A stretch of DNA of 64,000 nucleotides. Origin: an uncultured Desulfuromonas sp. (GTDB lineage: Bacteria; Desulfobacterota; Desulfuromonadia; Desulfuromonadales; Desulfuromonadaceae). Position 1 is the first letter of the stretch; the number at the start of each line of letters is the position of its first letter. The notes below the pieces were generated by a model. That model had not been told where the DNA came from. It worked only from the letters and a program-made list of their open reading frames with translations, and searched no databases. The DNA is taken from contig NZ_OY787469.1 of the NCBI RefSeq assembly GCF_963678835.1, positions 3,348,001 to 3,412,000 on the forward strand, given 5' to 3'. Both the position numbers and the translations under genes were made by a program. Of this stretch, positions 25,749-43,187 are shown piece by piece.

Positions 25749-27143
25749 ACTGAAGTTTAGAGTTTCGTGATCTTTGAAAATTAGTCGAAGTTGTAAAAAA
25801 TGCGTTGACATGACGGCCACTGTGTGTGGCCGCTATGGATATCAAGGGATACGGCAATATCCTCCAATCCCTGTACGACGCTATCACATTTCTGGCGCAG
25901 GCGCTGCCAAAACGCTCGGTTCCAACCTTTTTGGAGCTGTTGTTTGGTGCAATGCTGACCCAGAATGGTTTTGTCACCGATGCCTGGTTGGCAATTAAGC
26001 CGCGACGCCATTGGACCAGTTATTTTAAATGGCTGCAGAAGGGCCGCTGGTCTTGGGTTGCTCTTGGGCTGCAAACGGCCCGATTGTCTTTGCAACACAC
26101 AGAGGGTTCACGCTGTTATGTGGCCATCGACGACACCTTGGTCTTTCGCGGTTCACGTAAAGCCCCTGAGTCACGTATCCACCACCAGCATAGATGCAAA
26201 GTCAATCGTCCCGTTTATGTCCGGGGGCAGAACTGGGTCACCTTGGCTCTGGTATTACCGCAAGGGTGGCGCTCTTTGGCATTGCCGATTCTTTCCCGGC
26301 TCTCCAGGAGCACAGGCAACAGCGGTAAGCTGGTTGCGGCCAAGACTTTGCTCCGGGTGGCCAGGAGTCTTTTTGTCGGGCGCGTGGTGACGCTGCTGGT
26401 CGATTCCTGGTATATGCGAAAGTCCTTACTACTTCCGGTCCAAGCTATGGGTTATCAGATCATCGGTCAGGTGCGTAAAGACAAAGCGCTTTATCTGCCA
26501 CCACCTGTTCACAACGGCAAGCGCGGTCGGCCCCGTAAATACGGTGACAAGCTGACGGCTGAGCGTGTCGCTGAATTGCCCATGATCAGCCAGAACCTTT
26601 TTCTCTACGGGCAATGGCAGACGGTTCATTATCGCAGTTGCGTTGCCCGAGCCCGCTTCCTTGACGGACAACAGGTTCGCGCGGTCTGGTCTCAGATTGA
26701 AAACAAAGATGGAACCTTGCGTCAGCCCCGGCTCATCTTGAGCACCGATCTAAGCTTGTCAGCCGCACGCATCCTGCTGGCGTATAACCGCAGGTAGTCC
26801 ATCGAGGACCTGTTCAACCAGCTATGCGCTGCCACAGTTGTTGGCTCAACAGAACAGTGAACAGGTGAAAGACCTCGCCTCTCTCTGCCCTTGGAGAGAC
26901 AAACAGCCGATCACGGCCGGGCGTGTGCGCCAAGGGCTGCAAAGAATTTTTGGTCATGTCGATATCCGCAGCCACTGGAACCCGAAGTCGGGAAAATTCA
27001 GCCCTCAAAACCGGGGCAAAAAACCGGATCGGCCGCCTGATCCACACAAAACAACTTAACTTCGACAATTTCCAGTTATTAATGAACGCTTCCCAGCGCC
27101 GAATCAGGCCAGCTTGGGGAGGGGTGTAATTCTAAACTTCAGA
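25749..27143 (+). mobile_element. IS701/IS4-like element, defective copy
   Basis: It starts with ACTGAAGTTTAGAGTT at 25749 and ends with the partial complement TCTAAACTTCAG near 27142, the same ends as the full copy at 57521-59077. It lacks about 80 bases of leader and an internal stretch of the transposase present in that copy. The flanks show no clear target duplication. Confidence 0.88.
25835..26797 (+). pseudogene. IS701-like transposase, truncated
   Basis: Nearly identical to the transposase at 57604-58911 up to ILLAYNRR, where TGG has become TAG (stop at 26795-26797). The frame then continues SIEDLFNQL and jumps to the YALPQLLAQQN region. The missing segment of about 130 bases is bounded in the full copy by two similar TTCAAYCAGCT sequences, so the deletion is explained by recombination between short repeats. 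The catalytic C-terminal Glu region is lost. Confidence 0.88.
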
Positions 27144-27300
27144 TTGCAATTCAAGACCTGACAGCAGCCTTTTAATGGGTGACCCTAGTCACCCTGCGCC
27201 GCTAAATCCGCCACGTGTTATTGGAACATCGGACGCAATATCTTCCGCCAGTTTTTCAAAAGGATAGAGAGCCAGCCAGGTTCCCAGCAATTGAAGAAAA
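27144..27300 (-). other. Possible 3' remnant of a cassette gene
   Basis: On the minus strand one frame reads LGTWLALYPFEKLAEDIASD then VPITRGGFSGAG and a stop, directly after the right core of the attC at 27301-27361. It may be the start of the next cassette, cut by the IS element. No start codon or family can be assigned. Confidence 0.3.
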
Positions 27301-27361
27301 GTTCAACCACAGGATAAGATAGCGGCTCGTTCCTCGCGCTATCTATCCTTATTCGTTAGGG
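27301..27361 (-). repeat. attC site of the 27349-27645 cassette
   Basis: Minus strand: CCCTAAC (27361-27355), GAATAAGGATAGATAGCGCG, AGGAACGAGCCGCTATC, TTATCCTGTG, GTTGAAC (27307-27301). The arm sequences match the attC-like site at 2149-2209. Confidence 0.85.
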
Positions 27362-27645
27362 CTAATGCTCCAACGATGACGCCAATAATATAATAACGTG
27401 AAGATAAATCCCCACTGTATAAATGCACTTATCATGAGCAGCCCAACTGCACCAGGTGCACCTCCATCTGGAACCAACCAATAAAAGAATGAGGATGGAA
27501 TTAATGCCTCTAATAGCATAGCAGTAGGACTGCCACTTAGAACATAGGCACCAATTAGCGGGCCAATTCCGATTGTTAATAGCACACCAGCCAAAGTGCC
27601 ACTAGTAAGGAAGCCGAGCCCCATGTATTTAAGTAGTGATTTCAT
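27349..27645 (-). CDS. Cassette gene, 98-residue membrane protein
   Basis: 98 residues with three hydrophobic segments (YMGLGFLTSGTLAGVLLTIG, IPSSFFYWLVPDG, LLMISAFIQWGFIFTLLYYW) and a basic tail. No family recognised. It is bounded by an attC at 27301-27361 that overlaps its stop and by a GTTAGGG core (27656-27662, minus strand) 10 bases before its start. It is therefore a single-cassette island preceded by the leader element. The absence of a ribosome site fits cassette genes that depend on an upstream leader. Confidence 0.68.
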   Translation of the reverse strand: MKSLLKYMGLGFLTSGTLAGVLLTIGIGPLIGAYVLSGSPTAMLLEALIPSSFFYWLVPDGGAPGAVGLLMISAFIQWGFIFTLLYYWRHRWSISPNE

Positions 27646-27655
27646 TGCTTGTGAG

Positions 27656-27868
27656 CCCTAACAGTGTATTAAGCAGAATTGACATTCCAACCGACATTGC
27701 ATTTTTGTTCGCAAACAACCGATAATCACCCCTCATAAGCCGTGTTCCACAGGGCTATAACATAACGAACACACATGAAGTAATCCACAATTCTAATCAA
27801 GCCCTTTATGAGAGACATCAAAACAAGAGAAGGCCGGATCATCCTGCAATGCCCGGCCTTCTCTTGTT
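27656..27868 (-). repeat. Cassette leader element, copy 3 (with terminator hairpin)
   Basis: Hairpin arms at 27849-27868 and 27822-27842 serve as terminator for the FN3 gene ending at 27895. Then, minus strand: GATTAGAATTGTGGATTACT, TTCATGTGTGTTCG, GTGGAACACGG, TCAATTCTGCTTAATACACT, GTTAGGG. Blocks and order match copies 1 and 2. Confidence 0.75.
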
Positions 27869-27894
27869 CAACGTATTGCCCAAGTTCCTACACG

Positions 27895-29889
27895 CTAATT
27901 GGCGATCTTAATCTCCCGCGCTACACTCTCAGTGCTGTTGGCAGCGGCATCCCAGACCAGCACTTTGTAGAAATAGCGTTTTCCTTTAAGAACCGCATCA
28001 CGATAGGTTGAGCCGGTCACACGCCCCCGATTGACTTTAACGTAGTCGCGGTCGTTCTGACTGCGTTGCACGTCGAACCCAACCACGTCTTTATCAGCAC
28101 ACTGCACGGTGAGCACGGCTGCACCGTTGTCACTGGTGACGGTAAAACTGGTGATAGTTGGTGCAGTGGCGTCGCTGACGGTAACCGTTAACGGCGCTGA
28201 CGCCTCGGACTCGTTGCCGGTGTGATCGACGGCCGTCAGGGTGTAGCTGACCTCTTGGCCAACCGGGGCGGCTTGATCAACGAAGGTGGGCAACGGCAGC
28301 AACGTGGCTGTCAGCTTTTTCGCCGTGCCGCCGTTGCTGCGGTAGACGTTGTACCCGGCCAGGTCATAGACCGCCACCGGACGCCAGTTGAGCACCACCT
28401 GCTCGTTTTTCACATTGTAGTCACTGAGAATCGGCGTCTGCGGGGCGGTGACATCGGGCAGCTGGATTTCGACCACCATGGATGGTGCGGATTCGTTGTG
28501 ATGGGTATCCACGGCTGTAATCCGGTAGTAATAGGGATAACGCGACAGGTTTTTCGCCAACACATCGGTAAATTCAACTGCTGTCACCGGCTCGGGGTTG
28601 AGCAGCACCCAGTCGAGGCTTTGCGGCTTCATGGTGCGGTAAATGCGATAGCCCTGCAAGTCCGCGTCGGTAACCGGACTCCAGTTCAGCTGCACGCTGG
28701 CCTCAACCACCTTAGCGTCGAGTTGTTGGACCACGGCGGGTGGCGTGGCGTCTTTGGCAAAGCCGAGAACGGCCAGCGACGGGATGGATTCAAAGCCGCC
28801 ATCGTTGATGGCAGTAACGTAGTAGAAATAGTTGGTATCCACGACTACGCTACTGTCGGTGTAGCGGCGTTCGGTGAGCGGCTGAGCGTTAAGTTTCTGG
28901 TAACCGCCCTCATACTTTGGGCTGCGATACAGATTGTAGGAGACAACGCGCGGATCATCGCTGGACGGCCAAGAGATGGTGATGGACGTTTCACCGGCAT
29001 CCAGTTGCGGACGGGGCAACGGTGCCGGACGCGGATCGACCTTAATTTTGCCCATCACCTCGATGGAGGCGGGACCTTCGTCGCCGAAGAAGTCCACCCC
29101 ACGGATCTGGTAAAAAAACTGCTGGTGTTCCTTGATGTCGGTGTCGGTATAAAAATACGGCGCGACACTGATGGTGCCGTCGGGATTTACCGACGATTGT
29201 ACCTGAACCGGCGCACTGTTGATGCGGGTAAAGGTTTCCTCCAGCAAGCCGCGCCGGTAGATGTTAAACGAGGTGTAAGCCTCGTACCCTTCCCACTTGA
29301 GGCCAACGCCCCATTTGAACATATGGGCTTTGACCTGCCACACCATGGGCAGAGTCTTGGCCTTTTCGAGACTGACGGCGCACATATCGCTGGCTACGAG
29401 TTGATCGCCATCATACACCTCGACGGTGTAAACACGCTGTTGACTACCGGACAAATCATGATCGACCAAATACTGGCCTATGGCTGTGGCCACCTGTTTT
29501 TCCTGGGTGGAAATAAACAGCAGCATGCCGAGGCGGTTGTCGTCTTGGGCCAGCGACTGATTGAGTTCAGCGCGGTTCTTCGCCGTCTCAAACGGATACA
29601 TCAACTTGAGAGCCACCTCGTTGTCGGCCAGGCTCTTTTTCGCAGAAGCGTAGTCCAACATAGCCAGCTCGGCCACTTTGACCCGCTGCTGCAGATTGTC
29701 GGCGGCGGACCGCCACACCACGTAATGGTAATCCAGCCCCTTGTCGGACACCATCCAGCGCAACTGCACCTGTTGGCCGTCAAATTTTCCTTCAATGCCG
29801 ACTTGAACGTCCTGAGCCTGGACCAACCCGCACAGGCTGACCAACAGCAGCACAATGGCGAGACAGCTTTTTTTCATCATGTATTTCAT
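27895..29889 (-). CDS. Secreted fibronectin type III repeat protein
   Basis: 664 residues with signal peptide (KKSCLAIVLLLVSLCGLVQA). At least five fibronectin type III modules follow from about residue 195 on, recognisable by repeats of SWPSSDDPRVVSYNLYRSP, LNWSPVTDADLQGYRIYRT and LNWRPVAVYDLAGYNVYRS, each with a YYYxxTAxD-like strand. The first 190 residues form a distinct domain (VQLRWMVSDKGLDYHYVVWR). GGAG precedes the first ATG. The start is 3 bases after the stop of the giant protein gene, so the two must be cotranslated and probably act together at the cell surface. No anchor motif; secretion route unknown. Confidence 0.85.
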   Translation of the reverse strand: MKYMMKKSCLAIVLLLVSLCGLVQAQDVQVGIEGKFDGQQVQLRWMVSDKGLDYHYVVWRSAADNLQQRVKVAELAMLDYASAKKSLADNEVALKLMYPFETAKNRAELNQSLAQDDNRLGMLLFISTQEKQVATAIGQYLVDHDLSGSQQRVYTVEVYDGDQLVASDMCAVSLEKAKTLPMVWQVKAHMFKWGVGLKWEGYEAYTSFNIYRRGLLEETFTRINSAPVQVQSSVNPDGTISVAPYFYTDTDIKEHQQFFYQIRGVDFFGDEGPASIEVMGKIKVDPRPAPLPRPQLDAGETSITISWPSSDDPRVVSYNLYRSPKYEGGYQKLNAQPLTERRYTDSSVVVDTNYFYYVTAINDGGFESIPSLAVLGFAKDATPPAVVQQLDAKVVEASVQLNWSPVTDADLQGYRIYRTMKPQSLDWVLLNPEPVTAVEFTDVLAKNLSRYPYYYRITAVDTHHNESAPSMVVEIQLPDVTAPQTPILSDYNVKNEQVVLNWRPVAVYDLAGYNVYRSNGGTAKKLTATLLPLPTFVDQAAPVGQEVSYTLTAVDHTGNESEASAPLTVTVSDATAPTITSFTVTSDNGAAVLTVQCADKDVVGFDVQRSQNDRDYVKVNRGRVTGSTYRDAVLKGKRYFYKVLVWDAAANSTESVAREIKIAN

Positions 29890-29892
29890 ATC

Positions 29893-32800
29893 CTATCTCC
29901 CCAACAGTTCCGCGGGCGTCAATGCGTTGATCATACCGGTATTGTAAATGATGGTGCCACTGGTCAGATCGTATTCACCGGAGTAACTGTCCAGCTCGGT
30001 TTCACTGTCCTGCAGGCCACGTTGTTTGAAGCCGACACTGCCGAATTGCTGCAGGTATGAATGGTTCAGCAGATGGAAGCCAATCATACGCAACAGCAGA
30101 TTACCATCAAAGTGGTTTTCGTGAAGGGGTTTCAGCTCCAGCACATGTTCCAGGCCGTCAGGCTGACTGCGGACAAACCATTCACCTCGCCTGAAATTAT
30201 GGATAGTGGTCGCTCCGGGGTTCATATCGATCCCCATAACGGAAATCTGCTTGCTGAAAGCCGGGTGAACACCGGCGATCACATCAATTTCATTCCAGTT
30301 GATCGGTGCCGTAGTGCGGAAACGGAATTCCAGCGCCCGGAACTCGTTGGACGGATGGCGTTCAAACGCCGCCGCTTTGTATTCCTCGAAACGCTGGTCA
30401 AGCTGCCCTAACTGCTCGTTAAGCGGCGCACATTGCTCCATGGCCATGCGCCTCACAGCGGCCCGAAACACCTCAGGCATGACATCAAAATCGGACCAGT
30501 TCGCCGGGGCATAACCGCCGAGCGTATACACCAGTTCTTCAATCTGCGGTGGCGTATGGAACTGGCAAGTCTCGGCGACATCGCCGTAGATGCTGTTTTC
30601 ATAATCCACCCACAGGTCGTTGATTCCGGCATAGACGATTGTACGCTCGCCCTGAGCAACATCGGCCCGATACGCGTCCTGATCGACATTGAAGGCGATA
30701 TTGAAATGGGCATCGCTGATGCCGAGCTCCAATACATCGGCGGTGCTGGCAAACGGCAATTCGTCGCTGCCCTGGGCCGGGGTCGCCAGCACGAACTTGC
30801 TGGTATACTGCTTCTGCCCTTGCCCATCGACAATCTGGATCTGATATTCGCCATCCCAATACCAGCGGTAGGTTTCCTGCGACTCGCCAACCAGTAGCGC
30901 CTGATTCTGTAGCACCGACGACGCCCCGACCACATGAGGAGCTGCGACGGTTGATATCACACCACCGGTGCCGCTGACTACGGCCCCCTGTGTTGCGGTA
31001 ACCGTGGCCGCCATGTGTCCGCTGGTTATGATGCTACGGGTCGCGCTGGTGCCCGAGAGCGTGGTATGACCGATGACGCTTTGCCCGGTCGACACCAACT
31101 GACCGCTGGCGACAAGATCACCCTGTGAGGTTGGCGGGACATAGGTAAACGGATTTTGATAGCCGCCATCGACTTCAATGGCCGGGCGTTTCACCCCGGA
31201 GGAACTTTCCACCATGCGTACCGCTTTTAACGGTTGTTCGGGGCTGAAGTTAAGCAGGTAACGACGCGAACCCTCCTGACCGTCGGTCACCATCAAGCGG
31301 CCTTCCACCTGGCCGGGAATCACCTCACCGGCGGAATTGACCACTTCAAAACGCAGGTTTTCCTCCTGAATGGCCCAGTTCCAGACATAGCCGTCAAACA
31401 CCGCCTTGGTGATCAGATAGATCTCCGTTTCCGGGTAGACCGGGGTGGTGCTGCGCCGTGGATAGACGTCGTAGACCCGCTCGCGGAAACTAATCGGCTG
31501 ATCCGTGGTGGTAAAGGAAGCCGTCACCTGTTCACTGTTGACCACGTCACCGATGACATGATCATCGTAGTGGCGCAACTCGAGGGTTGTCGTGTAGGTG
31601 TAGCTGCGACTGGCCCCCAGCGCCATGTACGGCGTAAAATTCAGTTCCATACGTCCTTGCCGGCCGCCGACCACGCTCACCGGACTGTTGCCGTTTTTGA
31701 GCCGGATTGCCTTATGGATGGATTCGTTCACCTGGGTGAAGTCGATAATACCATCGGCTACATCAGGGTCTTTGACGCACAGCATGTACCAATGGCCGTC
31801 ATCGTATTTAAACGGTGTCATGAGCGGCATATTCGTACGCAAGAAAACACTCTCCAGGCGGCTGATTTCCGTGGCCCCGTTGGACGGAGACGAATAGGCC
31901 AGCAACGGCATGTCTTCAATGCCACTATCCGCCGCGCCCTCAGGTGGATCTTCCGGCATGGTGAAGGTCATTTCCCACGTGCCGGACACCAGCCCGCCCA
32001 CGAACGAGTAGCGCGCCGTTCCGTGCAAACCAATATACACCGGTGGTGCCTTGAAGCGGCCACCCAGCTCGGCATAGCCACTGAGGATTTCAAACTTGCG
32101 ATCAAGGGCCTTAACCCCGGCTTCGAGACCGATCCAGATTTTCCCTTGGGCATCAATGTAGAACGGCTGGATTCCGGCCTGCAGGTCGATCTGCGCGCCG
32201 CCGTAGACGCGGCCGTAGAAGATCCAGGCACTGCCTTCGAGATCAAACTCGTAGCGCACGCCCATGGCAATGCCGCTGGAATCGAGCTGCACATAGCCGG
32301 AGCCGGTCAAGAACTCCAGCAGGGTGACATTGAGCTGCTGCGAAGCGGAACCGAAGTAGATATGCCAGTCACTCTCAGAGAACAGCAGATCCACCTGGCC
32401 GCCGACACCGAGCAAGGTCATGCCGGACATCTCTTTTTCCAGGTTGGCCCGGGCGATGACATGCAGCATAGCCGGGCTGGCACCGAGTTCAATGGACGCC
32501 GCCAGGTGCGGCACACCCGAGGCATCGTCCTTGCCTTTCATGAACCAGGAATCGCCGGTCAACACAATGCGATAATTGGTCGGCTCCATGGTCAGGCTGA
32601 ATTTGCCGAAATAGGTGTAGCCTTCATCCAGGGTGCCAAGATCCACCAGCGCGGTCAAGGCAATGGCGGTATTGATATCCGGGGTAAATTCAACAGTGTT
32701 GCCCGCACCGACCGACACCGTTTCATGGTAGGCGATACCGCCGCCAATGCCGTAAATGTTCATCGGCAGCGGTGCCAGGGAGATACGGGCATGGGATTTC

Positions 32801-35800
32801 AATGCCACCCGCCAGTAGCTGAAACTGTTATTGTCGGCACTAATGGCACTGCCCGCTTCCAGGGTGGCGACCATATTGAGGGTTCCGGCAATGGCCACAT
32901 CGAGGTCGGCCATGAAACGGCCCTCGGCAATCTCCAGGTTGCCATACAGGGAGAATCCCGGCGTGGTGTAATCCACTTCAATCTGGTTGATGGTATAGCT
33001 GAGGTCCTGGTAGAGCATCACCTCGGCATCGGCACTCACGAGGTCACCCAAAGCAATGCCGCCACCGACTGTGAGGGTAAACTGGCCGCCGCCATCGGCT
33101 TCGGCATAGCCCAAAGCCAGGGAGTTCAGAGTGAGATCAACCCCGGCGAGACTGACAGTGGCATTGTCGAAACTGCCGCCCATCTGCGCCGCATCGATAT
33201 CGATATGATCCGAAAACACCTGCAGACCGGACAGATTGACATCGTCCGGCAGCGCCGACAGCACCGCCTCGGCCTTCATCTTCACATCGGTGTTCATGGA
33301 GAAGAACAGCCCCGAGGTGGAATCATACCCGGCTCCGATGTCGGTCACTGCGAGTTCGGCGAACCCGGCATCGGCCTTGAAGGTCTGGTCGGTCTCGCCG
33401 CCCAGCGACCAGGCGCTAACGCCGTCGTTATCCAGTGCCAAGGCTGCCGAAATCTCCAGATCGAGAAATGCCGTCAGGGTCAGGTCCAAACCGAGATGGC
33501 CACTGGACAGGGCAAAGCCGTGGAACGCCAGCCCGGCATCGGTGAGCACCGTGGGGAAGCCGAGTCCGTCAATGGCAATCGGGTTGGCCAGGTTGATCGC
33601 GCCATCGACCCCGGACGCGGAAAAGGTCAGATCAGCGACATCAAAAGCCACTGCCGTCTGTTCGTAGGGGATAGAGATCAGACCGCCGAAGCCGACGGAT
33701 TCCGCGCTGAAATCAATGGCGCCGGAAAAGCCTTTCAAAGCGATGGCCGTGCCCGGAATGGTGATGGACGACGCCAGGTCGGTGGCAAAACCATAAGCCC
33801 CGGCCGCGTATTCCAGAGCCGGTGCCAAGGCCGTGCCATAGCCCGAACCAAACACCACCGAACCGTCAAGAGTGGTCAGCCGAACCATGGCGTCAAAGGT
33901 GGTCTGGCTTGAATCCATGGCCAGGGAAACGGCGGTCAAATTGGCGGTGATGCCGTAATTGGCATCCTCAAACACCGGGATATCCTGATCACCGCTCCAG
34001 CTCAGCGTGCCGCTGAAACCGGACGCGGTCAGGCCGATATTGGTCAGCGACACCCCTTCGAGCATGGGCAGGGAACCGGCCTGGGTGAAGGCAATGGAAC
34101 CGCCGAGCACCTTGCCGTAAGGGGTTCCGCCGCTGGCACCCACTTCGATGCCGTTGATCTGGGCAGTAAAGAATGGGGTCACCATCTGGAACGGGGTATG
34201 AAAGGCAATCGATCCGGAGCTCAGCTTGGGCGCGCTCGGGTCGGACAGATCCACATTCACGTTGTGGATCGTCACCGGCAGTTCGCCCAGCGAGTTTTTC
34301 AACGCATCGGGAATCGATGCCATCAGCGCCCCCAGGTGCAGTGACCCTTCGGCTTCGGTGATGGTGCCGCCGGAGTAATCAAACGAGGTGCGCAGGGTGA
34401 AATCGCCGATGGCAATAAGCAAGTTGTCACCCGTGAGCTGGGAAAGGACAAATTCGCCATCATGATAGAGCTTGGCCGTGGCCGTCAACGACTGATCGTC
34501 GTAGGTCACGCCACCGGCCAGAGCAATCCAGAAGCGGTTGTCGGTCACACCGAAGCCGTACTGGTTCAACGACAGTTGCAGATCACCGTTGAGCATGACG
34601 TTGACGGAAGCCACATCATGCATGGGCAAGGCGGCATCGCCGAGGGATAAACCATCCTTAAACACTTTAAGGTCGGCAAAGTCAAAGGTACGCGGCAATT
34701 CGCCGATCTGCGAGTTATCCAGCGCCAGCGTGCCATCCAAGGCAATGTAAAAGGCCCCGTCGCGATATCCACCTTCGACATCGCTCAAGGTGACAGCAGC
34801 AAAGTTCGATAGCGTAAAGCTGCGCTCCAGGTTATCCGTAGCGACACGAAGGTCCTGCACGCCGCTGCCGTCAAAGGCGGCATCAACGGCAATGGGCACA
34901 TTGTCAAAAGCGCTGAGCAGAATCGTCCCATCCACAGAACCGGAGACCGCGTTCGATGAAATTTCCAAAGAAAGCTGGGTGAGTTCGGCGCCAAAACCGG
35001 CGAGTTCAAAGCCTGACAGGCTGCCGAGGTCAATATCCACCGGCCCCTGGGTCGACAGTCCCGAGGTGGACAGCACCAGGCTGTTTTCCTGCTTCAGACT
35101 GAACGAACCGCCGCCGAGTTCCTCCGGCAACGTGATTGCGCCCCACAGATTCACCTGCCGGTCGGCCAGATACAGCCGTCCGGTGAGGTTGTTGACGGCA
35201 AATGACGTACCGGGAATGGTGAAAGAGAACCCAGAGTTTAACGCATCCGCCGCAGCACTGGCCGCAGACTTGGCATCGGCAACGGTTTTATGTCCCAGCC
35301 TCAGAGTATCCTGACCCAAGCGGATGGCCCGGCTGGTTTGTTCAACGCCCCAGGTAATAGCCCCATCAGCCAGCAGTCGCAAGCCGTTAACGGTACGCTC
35401 CATGCCGTAACCGGAACCAAGTTCAATGGAACCATCCAGATCAGTAAGACGCACCATCTTCACCGGCGACGGTTGGCTGGTGTCTAGGGTCAGTTCCACA
35501 CTGATCAGTTTCAGGGTCAGGCCGTAGTCACCGGGAAGCACTGGAATCTCCAGTTCTTCACCACCCGTCGTCCCCAATGAGATGCCTCGTTTGGTGGTGG
35601 TCAAACGGGCAGTCCCGCTCGCAGAAGCCGCCCAGCTCACGGTGCCTTTAAAGCCACGCGGCTTCAACGCCAGGTTGGCAATATTCACATCCGACAAACT
35701 CTGCGGCAGTTCGATGCCACCCACAGAGGTCAAGGCAATATCGCCATCCACCGAGGCACCGGACGAACCAAAGCTGATGGATCGCAACTCGGCCTCCACC

Positions 35801-37923
35801 GCAGGTAGCGTCACAGTCATGCCGCGAGGGAAGTTTACCGTTACGGTTCCCGAAGTCACGGTTTTAGCATCCAGATCGACGCCGAGATTGGTGAAGCTGA
35901 CCTGGAGTTCTCCAGTCAGCGGATCTTTCATAGCAGCGGGAATAAAATCACTCAGGAATCCGGCGTTGATAAAGCCGTCACCACTGATCATTCCATCTGT
36001 TACCTGTGCGGCGGTACGCAGCGAAAAGTCACCGAGGCTCAGTGTCAGACCGTCGAAGCTGAAATCACTGATTTCGTAATGTTTGTCTTGAAAAATCCGT
36101 GCGGTCAGATCAAAGCTGTTGTTCTGATAACTGGCCTGCCCTTTCAACCCAAACCACAGTAAACCGTTCTCAACCCCCAGCCCGTACTGGCGCAGGGCCA
36201 GTTCAGCGCTGTTGATTTCAATCACGCCCCCTTTGATGCTTTTCCAGCCATCCATGTTGCTGACAAAGGCAATACCGTCTTTGAAAATCCGTAAACCATC
36301 GAGGGCCACTTTTCTGCTGTAGTCGGCAAACAGGCTATGGGTAGCCTGCAGGTCGCCATCGATCTGCACGTAGAAACGGTGGTCATAGTAACCGCTGGTG
36401 ACGTTATCCAGAGTCAGGGTGGCAAACCCGTCGAGGTCAAAGGTACGGTTGAGCGCGCCACTGTCAATGGTCAGCTCGGCAAGTCCGCTACTGTCAATAT
36501 CCGCGCTGACGGCGATACGCAGGCCAGCGAATTGTTCAAAAATCAACTCACCGTCGAGGGCACCACGGACCGCGCCCTGATCGATATTGAGGCGTAACGC
36601 GGTGAGTTGTGAATCGATGTTGGCCAGAGAGATTTCCGGCAGGTCCGTGGTCGGGAAGTTCAGCTCACCACCGGAGGACAAACCGTGAGCCGCCGACAGG
36701 GTTAAGGGGTGATCGGCAGGGATGGTGATGGACGCCGCCCCCAGCTCCGGGGGCAGGATCAGATCACCACTGAGGGTCAATTGCTTTTCCGCCAGCTGGA
36801 TGGAGCCCCCCAGGTCGGACACACTGAACAGATTGCCGGGCAGGATCAAGCGATGACCGGCCGAAGCAACTCCAGCGGCAAGATTTTTCCCCCAGTGAAT
36901 GGTGTTATCGGCCATCAGGGTTAAATCAGGCACCTCCAATCCGCCAAATCCTGGTCCAAAACGCAGCGCCCCGTCAAAAGCGGACAAACGCACCATGGAG
37001 GCCGGTTGATTTTCCGTATTGACCACAACCCGCAACGTGCTCAACGCCAGCCCAAAGCCGTAATCACCCGGAACAATATCCACGGAAAGGGAGCCGAGTT
37101 GTTGCATCAGGTCAATCTCACCGTTGAAACCGAGCTGTCCCAGATGCAGGGCGCTAAACGGCTGACTAACCGCAGGCAGTCCCAGGCCATCGAGAGAGAT
37201 CATACCGTCGATGCCGGCGGCTCCAGGAGTAAACGTCAGAGCAGACAGCTCCATGGTCACCGGACCAAGGGTAAACATCATCGGGCTGGGTGGTGTCACG
37301 GTCACGGAGCCGACCGTGACACGCTGCTGGGCGATATCGACCGTCACATGGTCCAATGTGACGGGAAGCTTGTTCTGAGCGTCCAGCAGGCTGGAAAACT
37401 TCTGCTGAAAAATCTCCGGCAAACCGGACACAACCCCCTGCCCCTGCTGAATCACGCCGCTGTCGTCAATAGCTCCTTCAACAATTTCAAGAAAGAAATC
37501 ACCCAGTTCAAAAAGCTGGTGCTGGGCGTCGGCATTGTCGTCAACAGCGCCGCTGCGCACAACGCGAATAGAGAAATAATAGGTTTTATTCAACTCGGGC
37601 GCAAAATGGTACACCCACTGGGCGTTGCCTTTGGCAGACTGCCAGTTGGCCCCGCCATCCATGGTGATCTGCACCTGCAGATCTTCCACGGCAATCGCCT
37701 TCTGTTCTGACTCTAACAAACCACGAATGACAATCTCGCCATTGATCAGGTCTTCCTGATAAAATTCCAGTGGCCGACTGTCAAATTCATCGAAGTGTCC
37801 ACCGTTGAGGGTCACCGCATCGAGGTAGCCCAGATCGTCGCCCTCATAAAATGCTTGAGCGGAAAATGACGTCATCAACACCAGCAAAGTAACGAGGCAA
37901 CAATGGAGTAACGATCTCAGCAA
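29893..37923 (-). CDS. Giant secreted beta-rich repeat protein, 2676 residues
   Basis: One uninterrupted frame from TTG 37923, supported by AGAGGG 7 bases upstream and a signal peptide beginning at once (LHCCLVTLLVLMTSFSAQA). Three diverged tandem repeats of about 515 residues begin near 285, 796 and 1319. Each has a (PGDY/DANY)G segment, then MVRLxxxDGSxxFGxGYG, and later FAxxTLxDVxxGY before a LxVFKDGL strand. From about 1700 to 2010 come further beta-rich strands without clear repetition. Then follow an Ig-like region (SPSNGATEISRLESVFLRTN), a Gly/Ser/Thr/Val-rich stretch of about 80 residues near 2300, and a unique C-terminus with several Cys. No family recognised. It is coupled to the FN3 gene downstream. 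Confidence 0.85.
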   Translation of the reverse strand: MLRSLLHCCLVTLLVLMTSFSAQAFYEGDDLGYLDAVTLNGGHFDEFDSRPLEFYQEDLINGEIVIRGLLESEQKAIAVEDLQVQITMDGGANWQSAKGNAQWVYHFAPELNKTYYFSIRVVRSGAVDDNADAQHQLFELGDFFLEIVEGAIDDSGVIQQGQGVVSGLPEIFQQKFSSLLDAQNKLPVTLDHVTVDIAQQRVTVGSVTVTPPSPMMFTLGPVTMELSALTFTPGAAGIDGMISLDGLGLPAVSQPFSALHLGQLGFNGEIDLMQQLGSLSVDIVPGDYGFGLALSTLRVVVNTENQPASMVRLSAFDGALRFGPGFGGLEVPDLTLMADNTIHWGKNLAAGVASAGHRLILPGNLFSVSDLGGSIQLAEKQLTLSGDLILPPELGAASITIPADHPLTLSAAHGLSSGGELNFPTTDLPEISLANIDSQLTALRLNIDQGAVRGALDGELIFEQFAGLRIAVSADIDSSGLAELTIDSGALNRTFDLDGFATLTLDNVTSGYYDHRFYVQIDGDLQATHSLFADYSRKVALDGLRIFKDGIAFVSNMDGWKSIKGGVIEINSAELALRQYGLGVENGLLWFGLKGQASYQNNSFDLTARIFQDKHYEISDFSFDGLTLSLGDFSLRTAAQVTDGMISGDGFINAGFLSDFIPAAMKDPLTGELQVSFTNLGVDLDAKTVTSGTVTVNFPRGMTVTLPAVEAELRSISFGSSGASVDGDIALTSVGGIELPQSLSDVNIANLALKPRGFKGTVSWAASASGTARLTTTKRGISLGTTGGEELEIPVLPGDYGLTLKLISVELTLDTSQPSPVKMVRLTDLDGSIELGSGYGMERTVNGLRLLADGAITWGVEQTSRAIRLGQDTLRLGHKTVADAKSAASAAADALNSGFSFTIPGTSFAVNNLTGRLYLADRQVNLWGAITLPEELGGGSFSLKQENSLVLSTSGLSTQGPVDIDLGSLSGFELAGFGAELTQLSLEISSNAVSGSVDGTILLSAFDNVPIAVDAAFDGSGVQDLRVATDNLERSFTLSNFAAVTLSDVEGGYRDGAFYIALDGTLALDNSQIGELPRTFDFADLKVFKDGLSLGDAALPMHDVASVNVMLNGDLQLSLNQYGFGVTDNRFWIALAGGVTYDDQSLTATAKLYHDGEFVLSQLTGDNLLIAIGDFTLRTSFDYSGGTITEAEGSLHLGALMASIPDALKNSLGELPVTIHNVNVDLSDPSAPKLSSGSIAFHTPFQMVTPFFTAQINGIEVGASGGTPYGKVLGGSIAFTQAGSLPMLEGVSLTNIGLTASGFSGTLSWSGDQDIPVFEDANYGITANLTAVSLAMDSSQTTFDAMVRLTTLDGSVVFGSGYGTALAPALEYAAGAYGFATDLASSITIPGTAIALKGFSGAIDFSAESVGFGGLISIPYEQTAVAFDVADLTFSASGVDGAINLANPIAIDGLGFPTVLTDAGLAFHGFALSSGHLGLDLTLTAFLDLEISAALALDNDGVSAWSLGGETDQTFKADAGFAELAVTDIGAGYDSTSGLFFSMNTDVKMKAEAVLSALPDDVNLSGLQVFSDHIDIDAAQMGGSFDNATVSLAGVDLTLNSLALGYAEADGGGQFTLTVGGGIALGDLVSADAEVMLYQDLSYTINQIEVDYTTPGFSLYGNLEIAEGRFMADLDVAIAGTLNMVATLEAGSAISADNNSFSYWRVALKSHARISLAPLPMNIYGIGGGIAYHETVSVGAGNTVEFTPDINTAIALTALVDLGTLDEGYTYFGKFSLTMEPTNYRIVLTGDSWFMKGKDDASGVPHLAASIELGASPAMLHVIARANLEKEMSGMTLLGVGGQVDLLFSESDWHIYFGSASQQLNVTLLEFLTGSGYVQLDSSGIAMGVRYEFDLEGSAWIFYGRVYGGAQIDLQAGIQPFYIDAQGKIWIGLEAGVKALDRKFEILSGYAELGGRFKAPPVYIGLHGTARYSFVGGLVSGTWEMTFTMPEDPPEGAADSGIEDMPLLAYSSPSNGATEISRLESVFLRTNMPLMTPFKYDDGHWYMLCVKDPDVADGIIDFTQVNESIHKAIRLKNGNSPVSVVGGRQGRMELNFTPYMALGASRSYTYTTTLELRHYDDHVIGDVVNSEQVTASFTTTDQPISFRERVYDVYPRRSTTPVYPETEIYLITKAVFDGYVWNWAIQEENLRFEVVNSAGEVIPGQVEGRLMVTDGQEGSRRYLLNFSPEQPLKAVRMVESSSGVKRPAIEVDGGYQNPFTYVPPTSQGDLVASGQLVSTGQSVIGHTTLSGTSATRSIITSGHMAATVTATQGAVVSGTGGVISTVAAPHVVGASSVLQNQALLVGESQETYRWYWDGEYQIQIVDGQGQKQYTSKFVLATPAQGSDELPFASTADVLELGISDAHFNIAFNVDQDAYRADVAQGERTIVYAGINDLWVDYENSIYGDVAETCQFHTPPQIEELVYTLGGYAPANWSDFDVMPEVFRAAVRRMAMEQCAPLNEQLGQLDQRFEEYKAAAFERHPSNEFRALEFRFRTTAPINWNEIDVIAGVHPAFSKQISVMGIDMNPGATTIHNFRRGEWFVRSQPDGLEHVLELKPLHENHFDGNLLLRMIGFHLLNHSYLQQFGSVGFKQRGLQDSETELDSYSGEYDLTSGTIIYNTGMINALTPAELLGR

Positions 37924-37943
37924 GGCAGAGCCCTCTCAAAGAA

Positions 37944-37977
37944 AAAACGCCACTGGTAGCATCAACCAGGGGCGTTT
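37944..37977 (-). terminator. Terminator between barrel and giant-protein genes
   Basis: Minus strand: AAACGCCCCTGGTTGATGC then TACCAGTGGCGTTTTTTC, a stem with a T-run, 6 bases past the barrel stop. It should lower or separate expression of the giant gene relative to the two genes before it. Confidence 0.82.
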
Positions 37978-37982
37978 ACGGT

Positions 37983-39575
37983 TTAAAAAGAAACAAGATA
38001 GGCGAGTTTGACCAGATGCTCCAGATAATCCTGATCGGTTTCGGAGCCTTCGGAATCGTATTCACGCCGCTCGGCCGTCAGGCGGATTGCCTTGGAACGG
38101 TCATGTCCGGGATGATAGTTGGCGCGCAACTGATAGCTGATATAACTGTTGTCAGCGGCCTCATCATTGTAGGTGTTTTTAGTTGATGCCGTAAAATCAG
38201 CGGACCACAAATTACCAGCATCGTATCCCAGATCAATGCTGCCGCCGAGGCTTTGCTGGTCACCACTGTCTTTGTCAATAAAGTGACCATCAACCCGTAA
38301 CGTGCTGCGAAACATATGATCATTGTCAAAACGTTTTTTCCAGCCGAAGGTTCCCCGGACCGTATTGATATGCTGATCTTCATTGGTCGCAACATGCTCA
38401 TCAATATTGGTGAAAATCCAGCCGAGACCATAGCGCCAGCCCCCCGTTGGACGCCAGCTGAAATTCGCTTCACAGATCTGCAGATCCTGATCAGCACCAT
38501 TGCCGACATTGCGCTTAAATTGACTCCTGAAATCTAAATCGCAACGTTTCAACCAATCAGGTCGATAGGTGAGATAAAGAACGCCGTCACGAGTGACAAG
38601 AGTATCCTCTTTCGAACCATCGAGATTATCGTGACTATGTTTCAGGGTGATCCGAAGTTTGACCTGCCGACTGATCAACCACTCCGTATCGTTCTCAAAA
38701 CGCTCCCGGTCAGAAGAAGCACTGGCAATAATCGGTTTGAATTCGCTATCAAGACGCTCATAAAAAAACGTGCTGCGAACCGAGCGTGGAATGGGTTTGG
38801 TCAACACCTTTACGCGGACTGCACCGGCATCATGATTGCTCAGATCGTCATCACTATGGGTGATGGCGGTTTCCCCTCGTACGGTCAGATAGCGATTAAA
38901 CCGCCAGTTCCATTCCATCCCGGCGGTTTGTGCTTCAACCGGGGTCACAGACAGTTCCTCTGGCACGGTGGTTCCGTCATCTTTAACGTAAGAAAGGGTT
39001 GCAGTCATTTCCTGAGCAGGGGCATGCTGCCAACGGCTGTTGAAACCGGCGATATAGCGATCCACTGACTCATCGGTTTTATAATCATAAAGATCTTCCC
39101 ACGACGGTTTTTGCAGACCGCCGATCAGGGTATGTTCCCAACCATGATCATAATCTCCAGACTGGTAAGCGGCTTTAATCCCTTTGACACTACTGCTGAA
39201 CACCAGAGGGTTATAGGTTCCGGCGACATCGCCTAACTCAATATTCCATTGCTGATTTTGCCAATAGCCGTGAAAATACAACAGACGGGCATCACGGCTA
39301 TCCACCTGCTGATTGTTTGTCGCACGACCGCGTAAATCAAACCCCAGACGACCGTTTTCTAAGCGACGGCTCAGATTAACACTCAACTCCTGTCTCCAGG
39401 TCGTTCCCTCTTCGACGGTACTGTCCGATTTGCCGTTAACATCCTGCCAGGCAATTTCACTTTCGGATCGCCCGCGAAGTCTCCAGGTATTCTCAGATGA
39501 AGACGTGGCGCCGACGGAAAGCATCGGTAGCAGCACAACAAAGCTAACCACGGATAAACATTTAAAGTATGACAT
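37983..39575 (-). CDS. Outer-membrane beta-barrel protein
   Basis: 530 residues. A signal peptide (CLSVVSFVVLLPMLSVGA) is followed by alternating amphipathic strands throughout (LSVNLSRRLENGRLGFDLRG, LRVDGHFIDKD, YQLRANYHPGHD). The protein ends YLVSF with a terminal Phe, the usual BAM recognition signal. Two Cys near residues 345-370 may pair. AAAGGACG precedes the ATG. It follows the Cys-repeat gene by 24 bases and is separated from the giant gene by a terminator. The placement suggests a channel or assembly partner for the surface proteins of this locus, but it does not resemble TpsB or autotransporter barrels. Confidence 0.8.
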   Translation of the reverse strand: MSYFKCLSVVSFVVLLPMLSVGATSSSENTWRLRGRSESEIAWQDVNGKSDSTVEEGTTWRQELSVNLSRRLENGRLGFDLRGRATNNQQVDSRDARLLYFHGYWQNQQWNIELGDVAGTYNPLVFSSSVKGIKAAYQSGDYDHGWEHTLIGGLQKPSWEDLYDYKTDESVDRYIAGFNSRWQHAPAQEMTATLSYVKDDGTTVPEELSVTPVEAQTAGMEWNWRFNRYLTVRGETAITHSDDDLSNHDAGAVRVKVLTKPIPRSVRSTFFYERLDSEFKPIIASASSDRERFENDTEWLISRQVKLRITLKHSHDNLDGSKEDTLVTRDGVLYLTYRPDWLKRCDLDFRSQFKRNVGNGADQDLQICEANFSWRPTGGWRYGLGWIFTNIDEHVATNEDQHINTVRGTFGWKKRFDNDHMFRSTLRVDGHFIDKDSGDQQSLGGSIDLGYDAGNLWSADFTASTKNTYNDEAADNSYISYQLRANYHPGHDRSKAIRLTAERREYDSEGSETDQDYLEHLVKLAYLVSF

Positions 39576-39599
39576 CGTTATCGTCCTTTATGTTAACCG

Positions 39600-41180
39600 T
39601 TAGTTACCAAGTTGAACGGCTCGTTCGTTGTTGTATTCGTTACTTTCAACAACAACATCCTGATAGTCGATCACCACATGATCCCCTGGGGATCCGGAAG
39701 GACAGCTGTTCTTCGTCACACTCAGCTCAGCAGTATAGGACTCTCCCGGAGACAGGCTCGAAATATTTTCATAATAGACATTTTTGTAAGTAAAGATCGC
39801 GGCTTGACAGGGTCCGCTTAAGGCCGTGCCGCTATTGCGTACGGTGTAGCGTAGTGAAGCCGAACCACTGCAGAACAACAATGCCTGCTCAACAACCAAG
39901 TCGGGCAGCGGTTGCGGATCGTAATGACAGCTGCTGTCATACCAGTAGCCGCCGTTCTTACGACAACTTGCTAAATTGATACATAAATCTAAATGCTGTG
40001 AATCGCAAACAGGCAGAGGCTCTTGATTACACGTGTTGTAATACCAATAGCCTCCACCGACGGACTCGCAGTTTGATACATCGCACAAATAGAGATGCTG
40101 CGGGTCACAAACCAATTGGGGAGCAGCGTTACAGGTATTGTCATACCAATAGCCGCCACCGACGGACTCACAGTTAGACGCGTCGCACAAATACAGATGC
40201 TGCGGGTCACACACGAGTTGAGGTTCGGCGTTACAAGTATTGTTATACCAGTAGCCGCCACCAACATTTTCGCAATTTGAGGCATTGCATAAGTTCAAAT
40301 GTTGCGGATCACACACCTCGTTCTGTTCAGCATGACAGCTGTTGTCATACCAATAACCACCACCTTGTGATTCGCAATTTGATGCGTCACAGAGATAAAG
40401 GTGTTGCGGATCACACACCGGCTGGGGATCAGAGTTACAGGAGTTGTTGTACCAGTAGCCGCCCTGTGATTCGCAGTTAGAGGCATCACACAGATAAAGG
40501 TGTTGAGCATCACAGACTTCGCCTTGTTCGGCATGGCAGCTACCGTCGTACCAATAGCCACCATATTCAACACAGTTTGTAACATCACACAGATATAAGT
40601 GATCTTTGTCACAGACATCGTCGGCTTGAGGATTGTCGTTGGGACGGGAGATCATTTCCTGTCCTGAAATCGGCGGAACTTCATCGCGCCACTCTTTCAA
40701 ACTGGAGCCGAACAGATTGTTGCCTGCCAACTCCACCAACAGATAGTCGCCTTCAACGTCATCAAACAAAAAACGGGAAAAGCCACGGGTTGTCAGTTGG
40801 CGCCCATCATCCAGATCTTCATAACGTTTTTCCCAGCGAACATATAAAAACCGTTTAACATGATCCGGCACGATGCGATCAATCCAGTAATCAACATGAT
40901 GGATTTCGTAGTTTCGGAAATCTGTATAAAGCGCGTCTGTAAAGGTGATGTAATCCTGACGAAAGCGCTCATCGGAAACCAGGTCCAAGAAACCTTGCGC
41001 ATCTTCATCTTCATAGGCTGTCATCAACTCTTTGAAAACGGACTGAACACGATCAGATCGTTGCTCATCTTTTACCAGCAACTCACGGTCATAACTGTTG
41101 TCAGCTCCGGCAAAACCAACCGTACTGAGGAACAGAGTAAACACCATGATAAGCAGGATTGGTCTAGACACAGCCTTCAT
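39600..41180 (-). CDS. Secreted protein with seven Cys-rich tandem repeats and CARDB-like end
   Basis: 526 residues. Signal peptide (PILLIMVFTLFLSTVGFAGA). A conserved domain to about residue 185 (VQSVFKELMTAYEDEDAQGF, nuclear-transport-factor-like) comes first. Seven repeats of 33-34 residues then follow on the pattern VCD-x2-HLYLC-x4-C-x3-GG(G)YWY-x3-C, so four Cys per repeat. The last about 90 residues (PDLVVEQALLF, RYTVRNSGTALSG, NEYNNERAVQL) look like a CARDB adhesion domain. AGGAG is 6 bases before the ATG. First gene of the surface locus. Cys spacing suggests disulfide-stabilised units rather than haem (no CxxCH) or zinc fingers. The repeat is not one I recognise. Confidence 0.82.
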   Translation of the reverse strand: MKAVSRPILLIMVFTLFLSTVGFAGADNSYDRELLVKDEQRSDRVQSVFKELMTAYEDEDAQGFLDLVSDERFRQDYITFTDALYTDFRNYEIHHVDYWIDRIVPDHVKRFLYVRWEKRYEDLDDGRQLTTRGFSRFLFDDVEGDYLLVELAGNNLFGSSLKEWRDEVPPISGQEMISRPNDNPQADDVCDKDHLYLCDVTNCVEYGGYWYDGSCHAEQGEVCDAQHLYLCDASNCESQGGYWYNNSCNSDPQPVCDPQHLYLCDASNCESQGGGYWYDNSCHAEQNEVCDPQHLNLCNASNCENVGGGYWYNNTCNAEPQLVCDPQHLYLCDASNCESVGGGYWYDNTCNAAPQLVCDPQHLYLCDVSNCESVGGGYWYYNTCNQEPLPVCDSQHLDLCINLASCRKNGGYWYDSSCHYDPQPLPDLVVEQALLFCSGSASLRYTVRNSGTALSGPCQAAIFTYKNVYYENISSLSPGESYTAELSVTKNSCPSGSPGDHVVIDYQDVVVESNEYNNERAVQLGN

Positions 41181-41251
41181 AGAATTCTCCTAATAAATAG
41201 TTTTTTGCATTATTGTAAGTCGCAGACTCTACAAAACTTTACATATTGATG

Positions 41252-41368
41252 CAATATAATTTTGTTTTCACACATTATAAACAAACGATTCGATCTTTAA
41301 TCTCAAAAATACAATATAATTTTTTCTTTACACATTAAACATGAGATTCGCTCTTTAACCTCAAAATA
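41252..41368. repeat. Direct tandem repeat, two units of about 58 bp
   Basis: CAATATAATTTTGTTTTCAC to about 41310 is followed by CAATATAATTTTTTCTTTAC to about 41368. Both continue CACATTA, GATTCG, CTTTAA, CTCAAAA. It lies upstream of the surface locus and overlaps the 3' end of the small gene at 41303. It could carry paired regulator sites or be a simple duplication. Confidence 0.78.
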
Positions 41369-41542
41369 CTCCGTATAACTATTTATTTTATAAGGCTTTT
41401 CTGACAAAAAAAACAAAGAGCAAGCGACATCATTTAAATCGTCTTCCGGCGGCGCCAACGTGACTAAAAACGGAAGACCAGATAGCATCCATCCTAGATG
41501 GGTGTCGTCATGAGTTGATGAAAAATCTATAAAAATTTCCAC
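41303..41542 (-). CDS. Small hypothetical gene, possibly truncated by IS5-type element
   Basis: 79 codons from a GTG at 41542. It reads FSSTHDDTHLGWMLSGLPFL then VTLAPPEDDLNDVACSLFFL and ends in the tandem repeat (KERISCLMCKEKIIL). Composition is gene-like but no ribosome site is visible. The upstream side is the edge of the IS5-type element, so the true N-terminus may be lost. No family recognised. Confidence 0.35.
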   Translation of the reverse strand: MEIFIDFSSTHDDTHLGWMLSGLPFLVTLAPPEDDLNDVACSLFFLSEKPYKINSYTEYFEVKERISCLMCKEKIILYF

Positions 41543-41589
41543 ATGCGTCTGATAAGAAACTGACCGGACAGCATTTTGAGGGGAATTTT

Positions 41590-42214
41590 ATGGATAACGC
41601 ATTGCATCGACACGAAATTTCCGATTCAGCATGGGAATTGATTGAACCACATTTGCCAGGACGTAAAGGCTCTGGGGGGGGGCGAGTAGCTAAGGATAAT
41701 AGAAGCTTTATAAATGCCGTTGTCTGGATATTGCGCACTGGCGCCCCTTGGCGCGACTTGCCGCCGGAATACGGGGACTGGAAAAACACTCATCGACGGT
41801 TTTGCCGCTGGCGTGATAAAGGGATTTGGGAAAAGCTGCTTGAAACAGTTATAGATGAACCAGACTTTGAATGGCTCATGATTGATGCCAGCCACGCCAA
41901 GGCCCATCAGCATGCGTGCGGAGCTGTAGGCGGCAATCAGGATATTGGCCTGACAAAAGGGGGCGAAACAGCAAAATTCATCTGACCGTGGATGCGCATG
42001 GTATGCCGCCCAAACTCCTTATTACATCTGGTACCACGGCGGATTGTTCAGTTGCAGAAGACCTTATAGAGGAGATAGATGCAGATTATGTGCTCGCTGA
42101 TAGAGGCTATGACAGTCAAAGCATCATCGATTGCATTGAGGAACGAGGGGCGAAGGCCGTCATCCCTCCACGAAGAAGCCGCAAAGAACAGCGGGATTAC
42201 GACAAACATTTATC
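41590..42214 (+). pseudogene. IS5-family (IS427-type) transposase, split by IS1595-type element
   Basis: Frame 1 (41590-41985) has DSAWELIEPHLPGRKG, APWRDLPPEYGDWKN and LMIDASHAKAHQHA (first catalytic Asp). Frame 2 (to 42214) has NSKIHLTVDAHGMPPKLLIT and YVLADRGYDSQSI (second Asp). In the IS427 group these are joined by -1 frameshifting, here in AAAAGGGGGCG near 41957. The protein stops at KHL where the IS1595-type element begins, and resumes after it with LYKIRHLVEK (from about 43191) before ending. The rest is missing. Confidence 0.85.
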
Positions 42215-43187
42215 TGATTAGCGTTAATCTTCAGCCGAGGGGTGACATGATTTGTCATGAGCCTGAGTTATGATCTTCTGGAACCCCAAAAAAAGAGGTC
42301 ACCATGAAGATGAATCGCATACAGTTTCAAGCAGGCTTGAGCCTGAACGAATTTCTAAGCAAATTCGGAACCGAAGAGCAAGGTCAATCAGCTCTCGAAA
42401 AGGCCCGTTGGCCCAACGGATTTGTTTGCCCAATTTGCCACAGTGAAAGCTATTGCAAAGTAAAGCATGGTCGAGTCAAAATTTTCCAGTGCAACTGTTG
42501 CCATAAACAGGTGACATTAACCGGTGGGACGATTTTTCACTCAACTAAATTGCCGCTGACCATCTGGTTTCAAGCGCTGTTTTTCCTGACTCAGACGAAA
42601 ACCAGCCTCTCAACTCTGGAATTGATGCGCCGGATCGGAGTCTGTTACCGTACGGCTTGGTGGTGCCTATCTGGGCGGTGAGCGCACCGGGGGCAAGGTC
42701 GGACGGGGATCTGAAAACAAGATCCCTTTTATCGCGGCCATCGAGACAAATTCTCAAGGCCATCCAAAGAGAGCAGTGTTTACTCCAGTTAAAACGTTCA
42801 GCCGTGCTGAAGTAAAAGTTTGGGCTCAGCAGTTTTTGAACGTTTCAGCGACCGTGGTTTCTGACGGGCTGGCCTGCTTCCGGGCCGTTGAAACCGTGGG
42901 CTGTAGACATCGACCTGAAATTGTCGGATCGCAGCGCAAAAGCACTCAAATGGGTTGCTTTCACTGGGTCAATACCATTCTAGGCAATCTGAAGACGTCA
43001 ATCGATGGAAATTATCATGGCTTCAAGTTTGGTAAATATGCCCATCGTTATCTGTCTGAGGTGCAGTATCGTTTTAATCGTCGCTTTGACTTAGCCAGTA
43101 TTCTACCGCGGCTGTTGTTTGCGGGATGCCAAACCAGCCCTCGATCTGAGCGCTGGCTCAGACTGGCTGACGATTAGCGCTAATCAG
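42215..43187 (+). mobile_element. IS1595-family element, defective, nested in IS5-type element
   Basis: Inverted ends CTGATTAGCGTTAATCTTCA (42215) and the complement of GACGATTAGCGCTAATCAG (ends 43187). The transposase from ATG 42304 has the zinc ribbon CPICHSESYCKVKHGRVKIF and, after a frame change, YLGGERTGGKVGRGSENKIP, VVSDGLACFRAV and CFHWVNTILGNLK. An internal deletion of roughly 28 codons after YRTAW leaves a premature TGA at 42679-42681, so it is inactive. Flanks ACATTTAT and AGATCTAT may be an eroded 8-bp target duplication. Confidence 0.82.

Follow-up and report, generated by a model that had tools for sequence, protein, structure and literature searches.

A four-gene envelope locus in Desulfuromonas

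The window analyzed here is a 64,000-nucleotide stretch of an uncultured Desulfuromonas sp. (NCBI RefSeq assembly GCF_963678835.1, contig NZ_OY787469.1, positions 3,348,001 to 3,412,000 of the forward strand), taken from a genome of 4.5 Mb in 2 contigs. Our subject is a set of four consecutive minus-strand genes within it, which encode a Cys-repeat/CARDB protein, a putative outer-membrane beta-barrel, a very large repeat protein that we call the giant, and an FN3 protein. A first-pass annotation, made from the sequence of the window, had proposed these four open reading frames (ORFs), and all of them were recovered where it had placed them, with lengths of 526, 530, 2676, and 664 residues. Throughout, G numbers denote genomes and L numbers denote the loci compared. 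The features of the locus, in window positions, are as follows.

39600..41180, minus strand: Cys-repeat/CARDB protein, 526 residues, exported, with an NTF2-like domain (residues 33-160), seven Cys repeats, and a C-terminal CARDB domain
40701..41084, minus strand: NTF2-like domain of the Cys-repeat/CARDB protein, placed by profile models
37983..39575, minus strand: outer-membrane beta-barrel, 530 residues, a member of the barrel family described below
37945..37977, minus strand: hairpin resembling an intrinsic terminator, with a T-run after it, in the spacer separating the barrel and giant genes, from folding and recurrence in relatives
29893..37923, minus strand: giant, 2676 residues, TTG start, with an Ig-like domain (residues 24-144), three large beta-rich repeats, a central region (residues 1596-2120), and a C-terminal part
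37492..37854, minus strand: Ig-like N-terminal domain of the giant, placed by profile models
32887..37506, minus strand: the three giant repeats (residues 140-642, 630-1184, and 1172-1679)
27895..29889, minus strand: FN3 protein, 664 residues, exported, with FN3 domains, 3 nucleotides after the giant
27820..27868, minus strand: hairpin after the FN3 gene, a probable operon terminator judged by eye, with a similar one at the same place in G007
41181..41277, minus strand: upstream stretch kept in G007, where similarity to the G007 operon ends, from sequence comparison

Pfam bears out the identities originally given to the first and last proteins, with CARDB in the former (E 7.6e-12) and FN3 in the latter (E 6.5e-9). 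The other traits described at the outset, namely the TTG start, the three large repeats, and an FN3 gene that follows the giant after a spacer of 3 nucleotides (GAT), are likewise present in the sequence, and the envelope character assigned to the set is supported. Signal peptides of the exported proteins were assigned by eye. For the barrel, Pfam gives a sub-threshold match to OMP_b-brl alone (E 0.12) and none above the cut-off, and there is no match to POTRA, an usher, or a known exporter. The giant has no match in Pfam or NCBIfam (E up to 1) or in PHROGs (E up to 0.001).

A barrel family encoded beside Ig-like and NTF2-like domains

By following weak matches to the giant's N-terminal part in other families of the order, we reached loci with a related barrel, and the barrels of the first such loci outside the window are 21-22% identical to the window barrel. 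Within the class, a profile of this family finds members in 23 of 277 genomes and 10 of 82 genera; in the phylum, it finds them in 22 of 395 genomes and 19 of 246 genera. Two of these 22 phylum genomes belong to the class, and the surroundings of 14 of the remaining 20 were annotated; the six left out have weak barrel matches (G361, G323, G470, G401, G601, and G451). Together with all 24 class loci, the window included, this gives 38 annotated loci.

We define the module as a family barrel that has an Ig-like and/or NTF2-like domain at most 3 kb away on the same strand. With fixed models, 34 of the 38 loci carry such a neighbor (24 with both domains, 4 with Ig only, and 6 with NTF2 only), and every one of these neighbors lies on the strand of its barrel. 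The class loci contributed to the Ig and NTF2 models and the 14 phylum loci did not; among these independent loci, 11 of 14 have the neighbor. One locus that lacks it, L070, lies on a contig that stops inside the barrel. Control regions (14 loci, 757 ORFs, 157 kb) yield three matches, which are L134 and L135, both chosen for their NTF2 domain, and the start of G007's own gene. The window falls within the definition, with the Ig domain at the N-terminus of the giant and the NTF2 domain at the N-terminus of the Cys-repeat/CARDB protein.

The module occurs in two layouts. In layout I, the order is that of the window: NTF2 protein, barrel, Ig-bearing giant, and FN3 protein. The first-pass annotation had named lack of conservation as an outcome that would count against its reading, and this was not seen: G007, G097, and G229 share the complete gene order of the window, although in G229 an additional gene separates the first two. 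Partial versions are found in G001 (on two contigs), G104, G100, G096, G106, G094, and G095. In a midpoint-rooted tree, some deep branches of which are weakly supported, the 11 layout-I barrels group together with a support of 1.0. In layout II, the barrel is accompanied by an Ig-NTF2 protein and one or more large proteins with a C-terminal NTF2 domain. The Ig-NTF2 protein, of 410-445 residues and encoded after the barrel, fuses both domains that layout I keeps on separate proteins (giant-type Ig, best E 1e-14; Cys-protein-type NTF2, best E 6e-9), which suggests that the split proteins may meet.

The NTF2 domain also forms the C-terminal tail of the large layout-II proteins, some of which have unrelated bodies. 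At L120, the bodies of three large proteins belong to three different clusters, with no blastp match between them at E<=1e-3, and the tails of these proteins are 64-73% identical. Sorted by body, 18 large proteins make up 6 clusters; sorted by tail, 17 of them form one. One kind of tail on differing large proteins suggests a role in docking or sorting. The NTF2 domain of the fused protein bridges the window-type domain and the tails (97.6% and 94.6%).

The tail has weak matches to NTF2-like models: 5 of 14 tails match Cds6_C (best E 5e-4), one matches SnoaL_3 and DUF4440, and the designed NTF2 protein 5trv is matched at E 0.03. The window NTF2 and Ig domains have no match to the NTF2-like or Mo-co dimerization Pfam families, and a PDB profile search with the window NTF2 set gave unconvincing matches, headed by VPS28 (E 0.008). 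The Ig domain resembles the Mo-co oxidoreductase dimerization domain PF03404, which among those scanned lies above the cut-off in L131 only (E 1e-5). Two further arrangements were seen. At L135 (2681-11819), a 192-residue NTF2 protein is divergent from a 2337-residue ORF, followed by a GerE-type regulator, with no family barrel in the 20-kb stretch. At L130 (10245-12029), the protein beside a family barrel has a FecR domain (Pfam E 3e-14) ahead of its Ig-like part.

The other partners vary. The large partners of L033 and L034 have a helix-like periodicity (z 2.3), and a subtilase is encoded near the L131 barrel. Six layout-II barrels (L032, L033, L034, L039, L071, and L072) have beside them a GerE-type regulator that exceeds the Pfam cut-off; those of L065 and L070 fall just below it. 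At L126 (3576-6512), genes for a PASTA-subtilase and an ECF sigma factor are divergent from the barrel and NTF2 pair and may belong to envelope signaling. The number of Cys repeats in the NTF2 protein is 7, 7, 0, 1, 1, 1, 2, and 0 across eight loci. Genome G010 has Cys repeats like those of the window protein in a protein of otherwise different appearance (L038:9207-10694), and the repeat may therefore be a mobile module.

A giant of beta-rich repeats

Repeats 1 and 2 of the giant match each other by blastp (E 3e-67), and its TTG start aligns with the ATG of the G007 orthologue. Among whole giants there are three repeat copies in the window and in G007, four in L066, and five in L068; the variable number suggests a stalk of adjustable length. 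Compared with shuffled sequences, beta-strand periodicity is pronounced in the repeats (z 7.5) and the central region (z 6.1) and is slight in the C-terminal part (z 1.2), and the helix periodicity of the repeats is z -0.2. The central region is found strongly in 11 of the 277 class genomes, ten of which have the barrel, the eleventh being G006; there are two further marginal matches (E about 2e-4). A resemblance of the central region to DUF6603 (PF20248) was considered and rejected, as the giant has no such Pfam match at E up to 1. A genome search with PF20248 gave 0 of 58 genomes but also 0 of 14 controls, so it is uninformative by itself.

A hairpin between the barrel and giant genes

The hairpin between the barrel and giant genes of the window folds with -17.1 kcal/mol, and 0 of 200 shuffles are as good. 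A generic terminator scan of 27000-43000 returns 15 sites against a chance mean of 15.3, so the case for the hairpin as a terminator comes from its reappearance at the equivalent position in relatives and not from the scan. In 10 of the 11 layout-I spacers, a hairpin and a T-rich stretch directly follow the barrel stop codon (the T stretch is interrupted in L036). The minimum free energy z scores of these 10 hairpins run from -1.8 to -7.9, and those of nine control stretches, taken from the ends of other genes in the same operons, from -1.65 to +1.18. By eye, the stems of the window, G007, and G001 have no recognizable common sequence, and L063, L066, L067, and L068, all of one genus, have a similar stem arm. 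These spacers would offer a terminator that is kept by position, not by sequence, inside a surface operon. The unequal expression proposed in the first reading of the window is hinted at by this terminator-like hairpin, which suggests that few giants may be made per barrel.

Comparison with known systems

Lap/RTX and two-partner secretion systems involve large surface adhesins with an outer-membrane partner. The present set resembles them in having a very large exported repeat protein with a variable number of repeats, whose gene lies beside that of an outer-membrane protein. It differs in that Pfam, searched at E up to 1, matches none of the four proteins to RTX, the two-partner secretion (TPS) domain, ShlB/FhaC, an usher, or an autotransporter. 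Two-partner secretion pairs a POTRA/ShlB-FhaC barrel with a TPS domain in the large partner, and neither was matched by Pfam in the barrel or giant. In type V autotransporters, the passenger is fused to its own barrel; here, the barrel is a separate gene and the giant has no autotransporter match. Type I adhesins of the Lap/RTX kind carry RTX repeats and have ABC, MFP, and TolC genes nearby; no RTX match was found, and no ABC, MFP, or TolC gene lies among the ten neighbors scanned (the neighbors only, not the rest of the genome).

Exported proteins with CARDB, Ig-like, FN3, and S8 protease domains are described from syntrophic sulfate reducers of the same phylum in PMC10553843. The passages compared describe no set of barrel, Ig, and NTF2, and NTF2 has 0 occurrences in the main text. 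In PMC12133095, porin-cytochrome conduits of Desulfuromonas likewise have an outer-membrane barrel encoded with exported partners. A porin-cytochrome or heme conduit was rejected here; unlike multiheme cytochromes, the four proteins contain no CXXCH, and the motif does not occur on the minus-strand frames of 27895-41180. A large exported protein paired with an outer-membrane one is a familiar arrangement, although no tested family fits this set. We found no description of the barrel, Ig, and NTF2 gene set in the open-licence literature searched. The first-pass annotation knew of no described secretion or adhesion system with these four genes: this stands insofar as no described secretion or adhesion system was matched, but the set is not isolated, as it forms the giant-bearing branch of the wider module of barrel, Ig, and NTF2.

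A proposed outer-membrane platform for tagged large proteins

Taken together, these observations suggested to us an outer-membrane platform that displays, and possibly exports, tagged large proteins, with the giant as a low-copy surface stalk. We favor this reading tentatively and judge it a little short of evenly balanced. The 530-residue barrel would sit in the outer membrane, and exported partners would be gathered at it by their Ig-like or NTF2-like domains, which in this branch are carried by the giant (Ig, at its N-terminus) and by the Cys-repeat/CARDB protein (NTF2). The beta-rich repeats of the giant would form a long stalk outward from the cell, which the FN3 protein may join, and the terminator between the barrel and giant genes would result in an excess of platform over a small number of giants. 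The membrane location, the docking, the stalk, the stoichiometry, and a role in attachment to, or contact with, cells or surfaces are all what we infer from sequence.

Several observations weigh against such a platform. PDB profile searches gave no match for the barrel and no usable match for the giant repeats or central region. L124, L128, and L133 have no Ig or NTF2 neighbor. The window-type NTF2 domain compared directly with the tails gives a weak match (10%, E 0.003), and a single body cluster takes in 12 of the 18 large proteins, which makes the tail less independent of the body than L120 alone suggests. The large partner of L032 has ten PASTA stretches, which could mean a location on the peptidoglycan side. 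At L077, the spacer has no hairpin (z +1.1), and the repeat model finds nothing in the giant, where profile comparison gives one partial copy (residues 1441-1740, 99.2%) with shorter repeats before it. Lastly, the weakest hairpins, those of L030 (z -1.84) and L068 (z -1.88), are barely beyond the best control (-1.65).

The same gene set could instead serve dedicated secretion, with the barrel as the outer-membrane pore for the giant and other tagged proteins, the NTF2 and Ig domains as the export signal, and the proteins perhaps released rather than displayed. An NTF2 tail common to the large proteins encoded beside the barrel is what a sorting tag would look like, and L120, L122, L073, and L074 have several large proteins per barrel. 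However, the barrel matches neither POTRA nor an usher nor any known exporter, no energy-coupling genes occur among the window neighbors scanned, and domains that are N-terminal in the window and a tail that is C-terminal in layout II would be odd for one signal. We consider dedicated secretion unlikely.

A periplasmic bridge or cell-wall linker, in which the giant and the proteins equivalent to it reach from the barrel across to the inner membrane or the peptidoglycan and perhaps carry lipid along beta-grooves, appears somewhat less likely again. It would account for PASTA in the L032 partner and in the subtilase near L126, for the beta periodicity of the giant repeats, and for the AsmA-like DUF748 gene that immediately precedes the operon in G007 and G001. 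However, the repeats show no profile relation to DUF748 or TamB (hhalign 0.2-0.3%, with shallow profiles, that of TamB built from two partial sequences and that of DUF748 from three close ones), and an AsmA/TamB/DUF748 relation is not supported by this weak test; DUF748 is also found in G002 and G008 without the operon, and a protein bridging a constant distance would not be expected to vary between 3 and 5 repeats.

Binding proteins often contain CARDB and FN3 domains, and the presence of these domains here, with a barrel that has exported partners, would suit polymer binding and uptake, SusCD-like in manner, in which the barrel imports a substrate captured by the large exported proteins. This seems improbable, as the four proteins have no match to an enzyme, TonB-box, or transporter family and the ten neighbors scanned hold no uptake or hydrolytic polysaccharide gene set. 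Envelope sensing, in which the partners sense the state of the surface or envelope and signal to a regulator, is just as improbable: GerE-type regulators beside six layout-II barrels, the ECF sigma factor near L126, and the FecR domain in L130 favor it, but no such regulator is among the ten window neighbors scanned, bar an AraC-type gene that keeps with DUF748 in G007.

An extension of the platform reading to the whole phylum is possible but more doubtful than the platform itself. It would make this a new class of outer-membrane assembly, in which the members of one barrel family, by recognizing NTF2-like and Ig-like domains, present or export large proteins of very different kinds (giant beta-repeat stalks, PASTA rods, and helical proteins), an intra-operon terminator sets the ratio of platform to giant, and the operon is gained, lost, and exchanged as mosaics between strains. 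If true, bacteria of metal and sulfur cycling would share a widespread, apparently unnamed envelope system with a directly testable sorting or docking tag; if only the conservative part holds, four "hypothetical" proteins gain a shared context and a family definition.

Distribution and genome setting

Within the genus, the giant is present in 4 of 10 genomes (G000, G001, G006, and G007) and was not found in the other 6, some of which are incomplete drafts; the barrel is present in 3 of 10. The draft G006 (460 contigs) has the giant and FN3 gene and no barrel match. Synonymous divergence (dS) is uneven along the operon. Between the window and G007, it is 0.32 in the barrel; in the giant, it is saturated at residues 1-202, 0.45-0.61 at residues 1003-2002, and up to 1.76 toward the C-terminus. 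Between the window and G001, it is 1.37 in the barrel, 2.59 in the NTF2 gene, and just 0.02-0.27 from residue 917 to about residue 2116 of the giant. We read the uneven dS and the mosaic alleles as probable recombination between strains. Positive selection was rejected, the ratio of nonsynonymous to synonymous divergence (dN/dS) being about 0.07-0.14 per gene between the window and G007.

A DUF748 gene precedes the operon, on the same strand, in G007 and G001. In the window, what comes after DUF748 is similar to the corresponding sequence of G002 and G008, and the operon lies on the other side of DUF748, past AraC-type, methyltransferase, and DDE_5 transposase genes. The AraC-type gene remains with DUF748 in G007, not with the operon. 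Because DUF748 in G002 and G008 stands without the operon and the window operon sits on its other side, the operon appears to be gained, lost, or moved as a block; where precisely it joins its surroundings is uncertain, since the flanks that match are short and contain a dispersed motif. Plasmid carriage, a defense system, and a phage origin were rejected: among 72,556 plasmid records, tblastn matches neither the barrel nor the giant at E<=1e-3, PADLOC gives no match, and the giant, barrel, and Cys protein have no PHROGs match, the FN3 protein having FN3-type matches only.

Several mobile or repeated elements lie nearby. The DDE_5 transposase gene (25826-26797, plus strand) stands between the operon and the methyltransferase/AraC/DUF748 block, at the edge of the rearrangement relative to G007. 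The dispersed motif, of 25 bases, occurs on the minus strand in three copies with up to 3 mismatches (9355-9379, 20109-20133, and 27772-27796), where none is expected; further copies follow DUF748 in G002 and G008 and the FN3 gene in G007. Upstream of the operon, traces of a group II intron (43490-44479 and 45089-45312, minus strand) comprise a reverse transcriptase gene and an Rfam match to group-II-D1D4-6 (E 4.6e-53).

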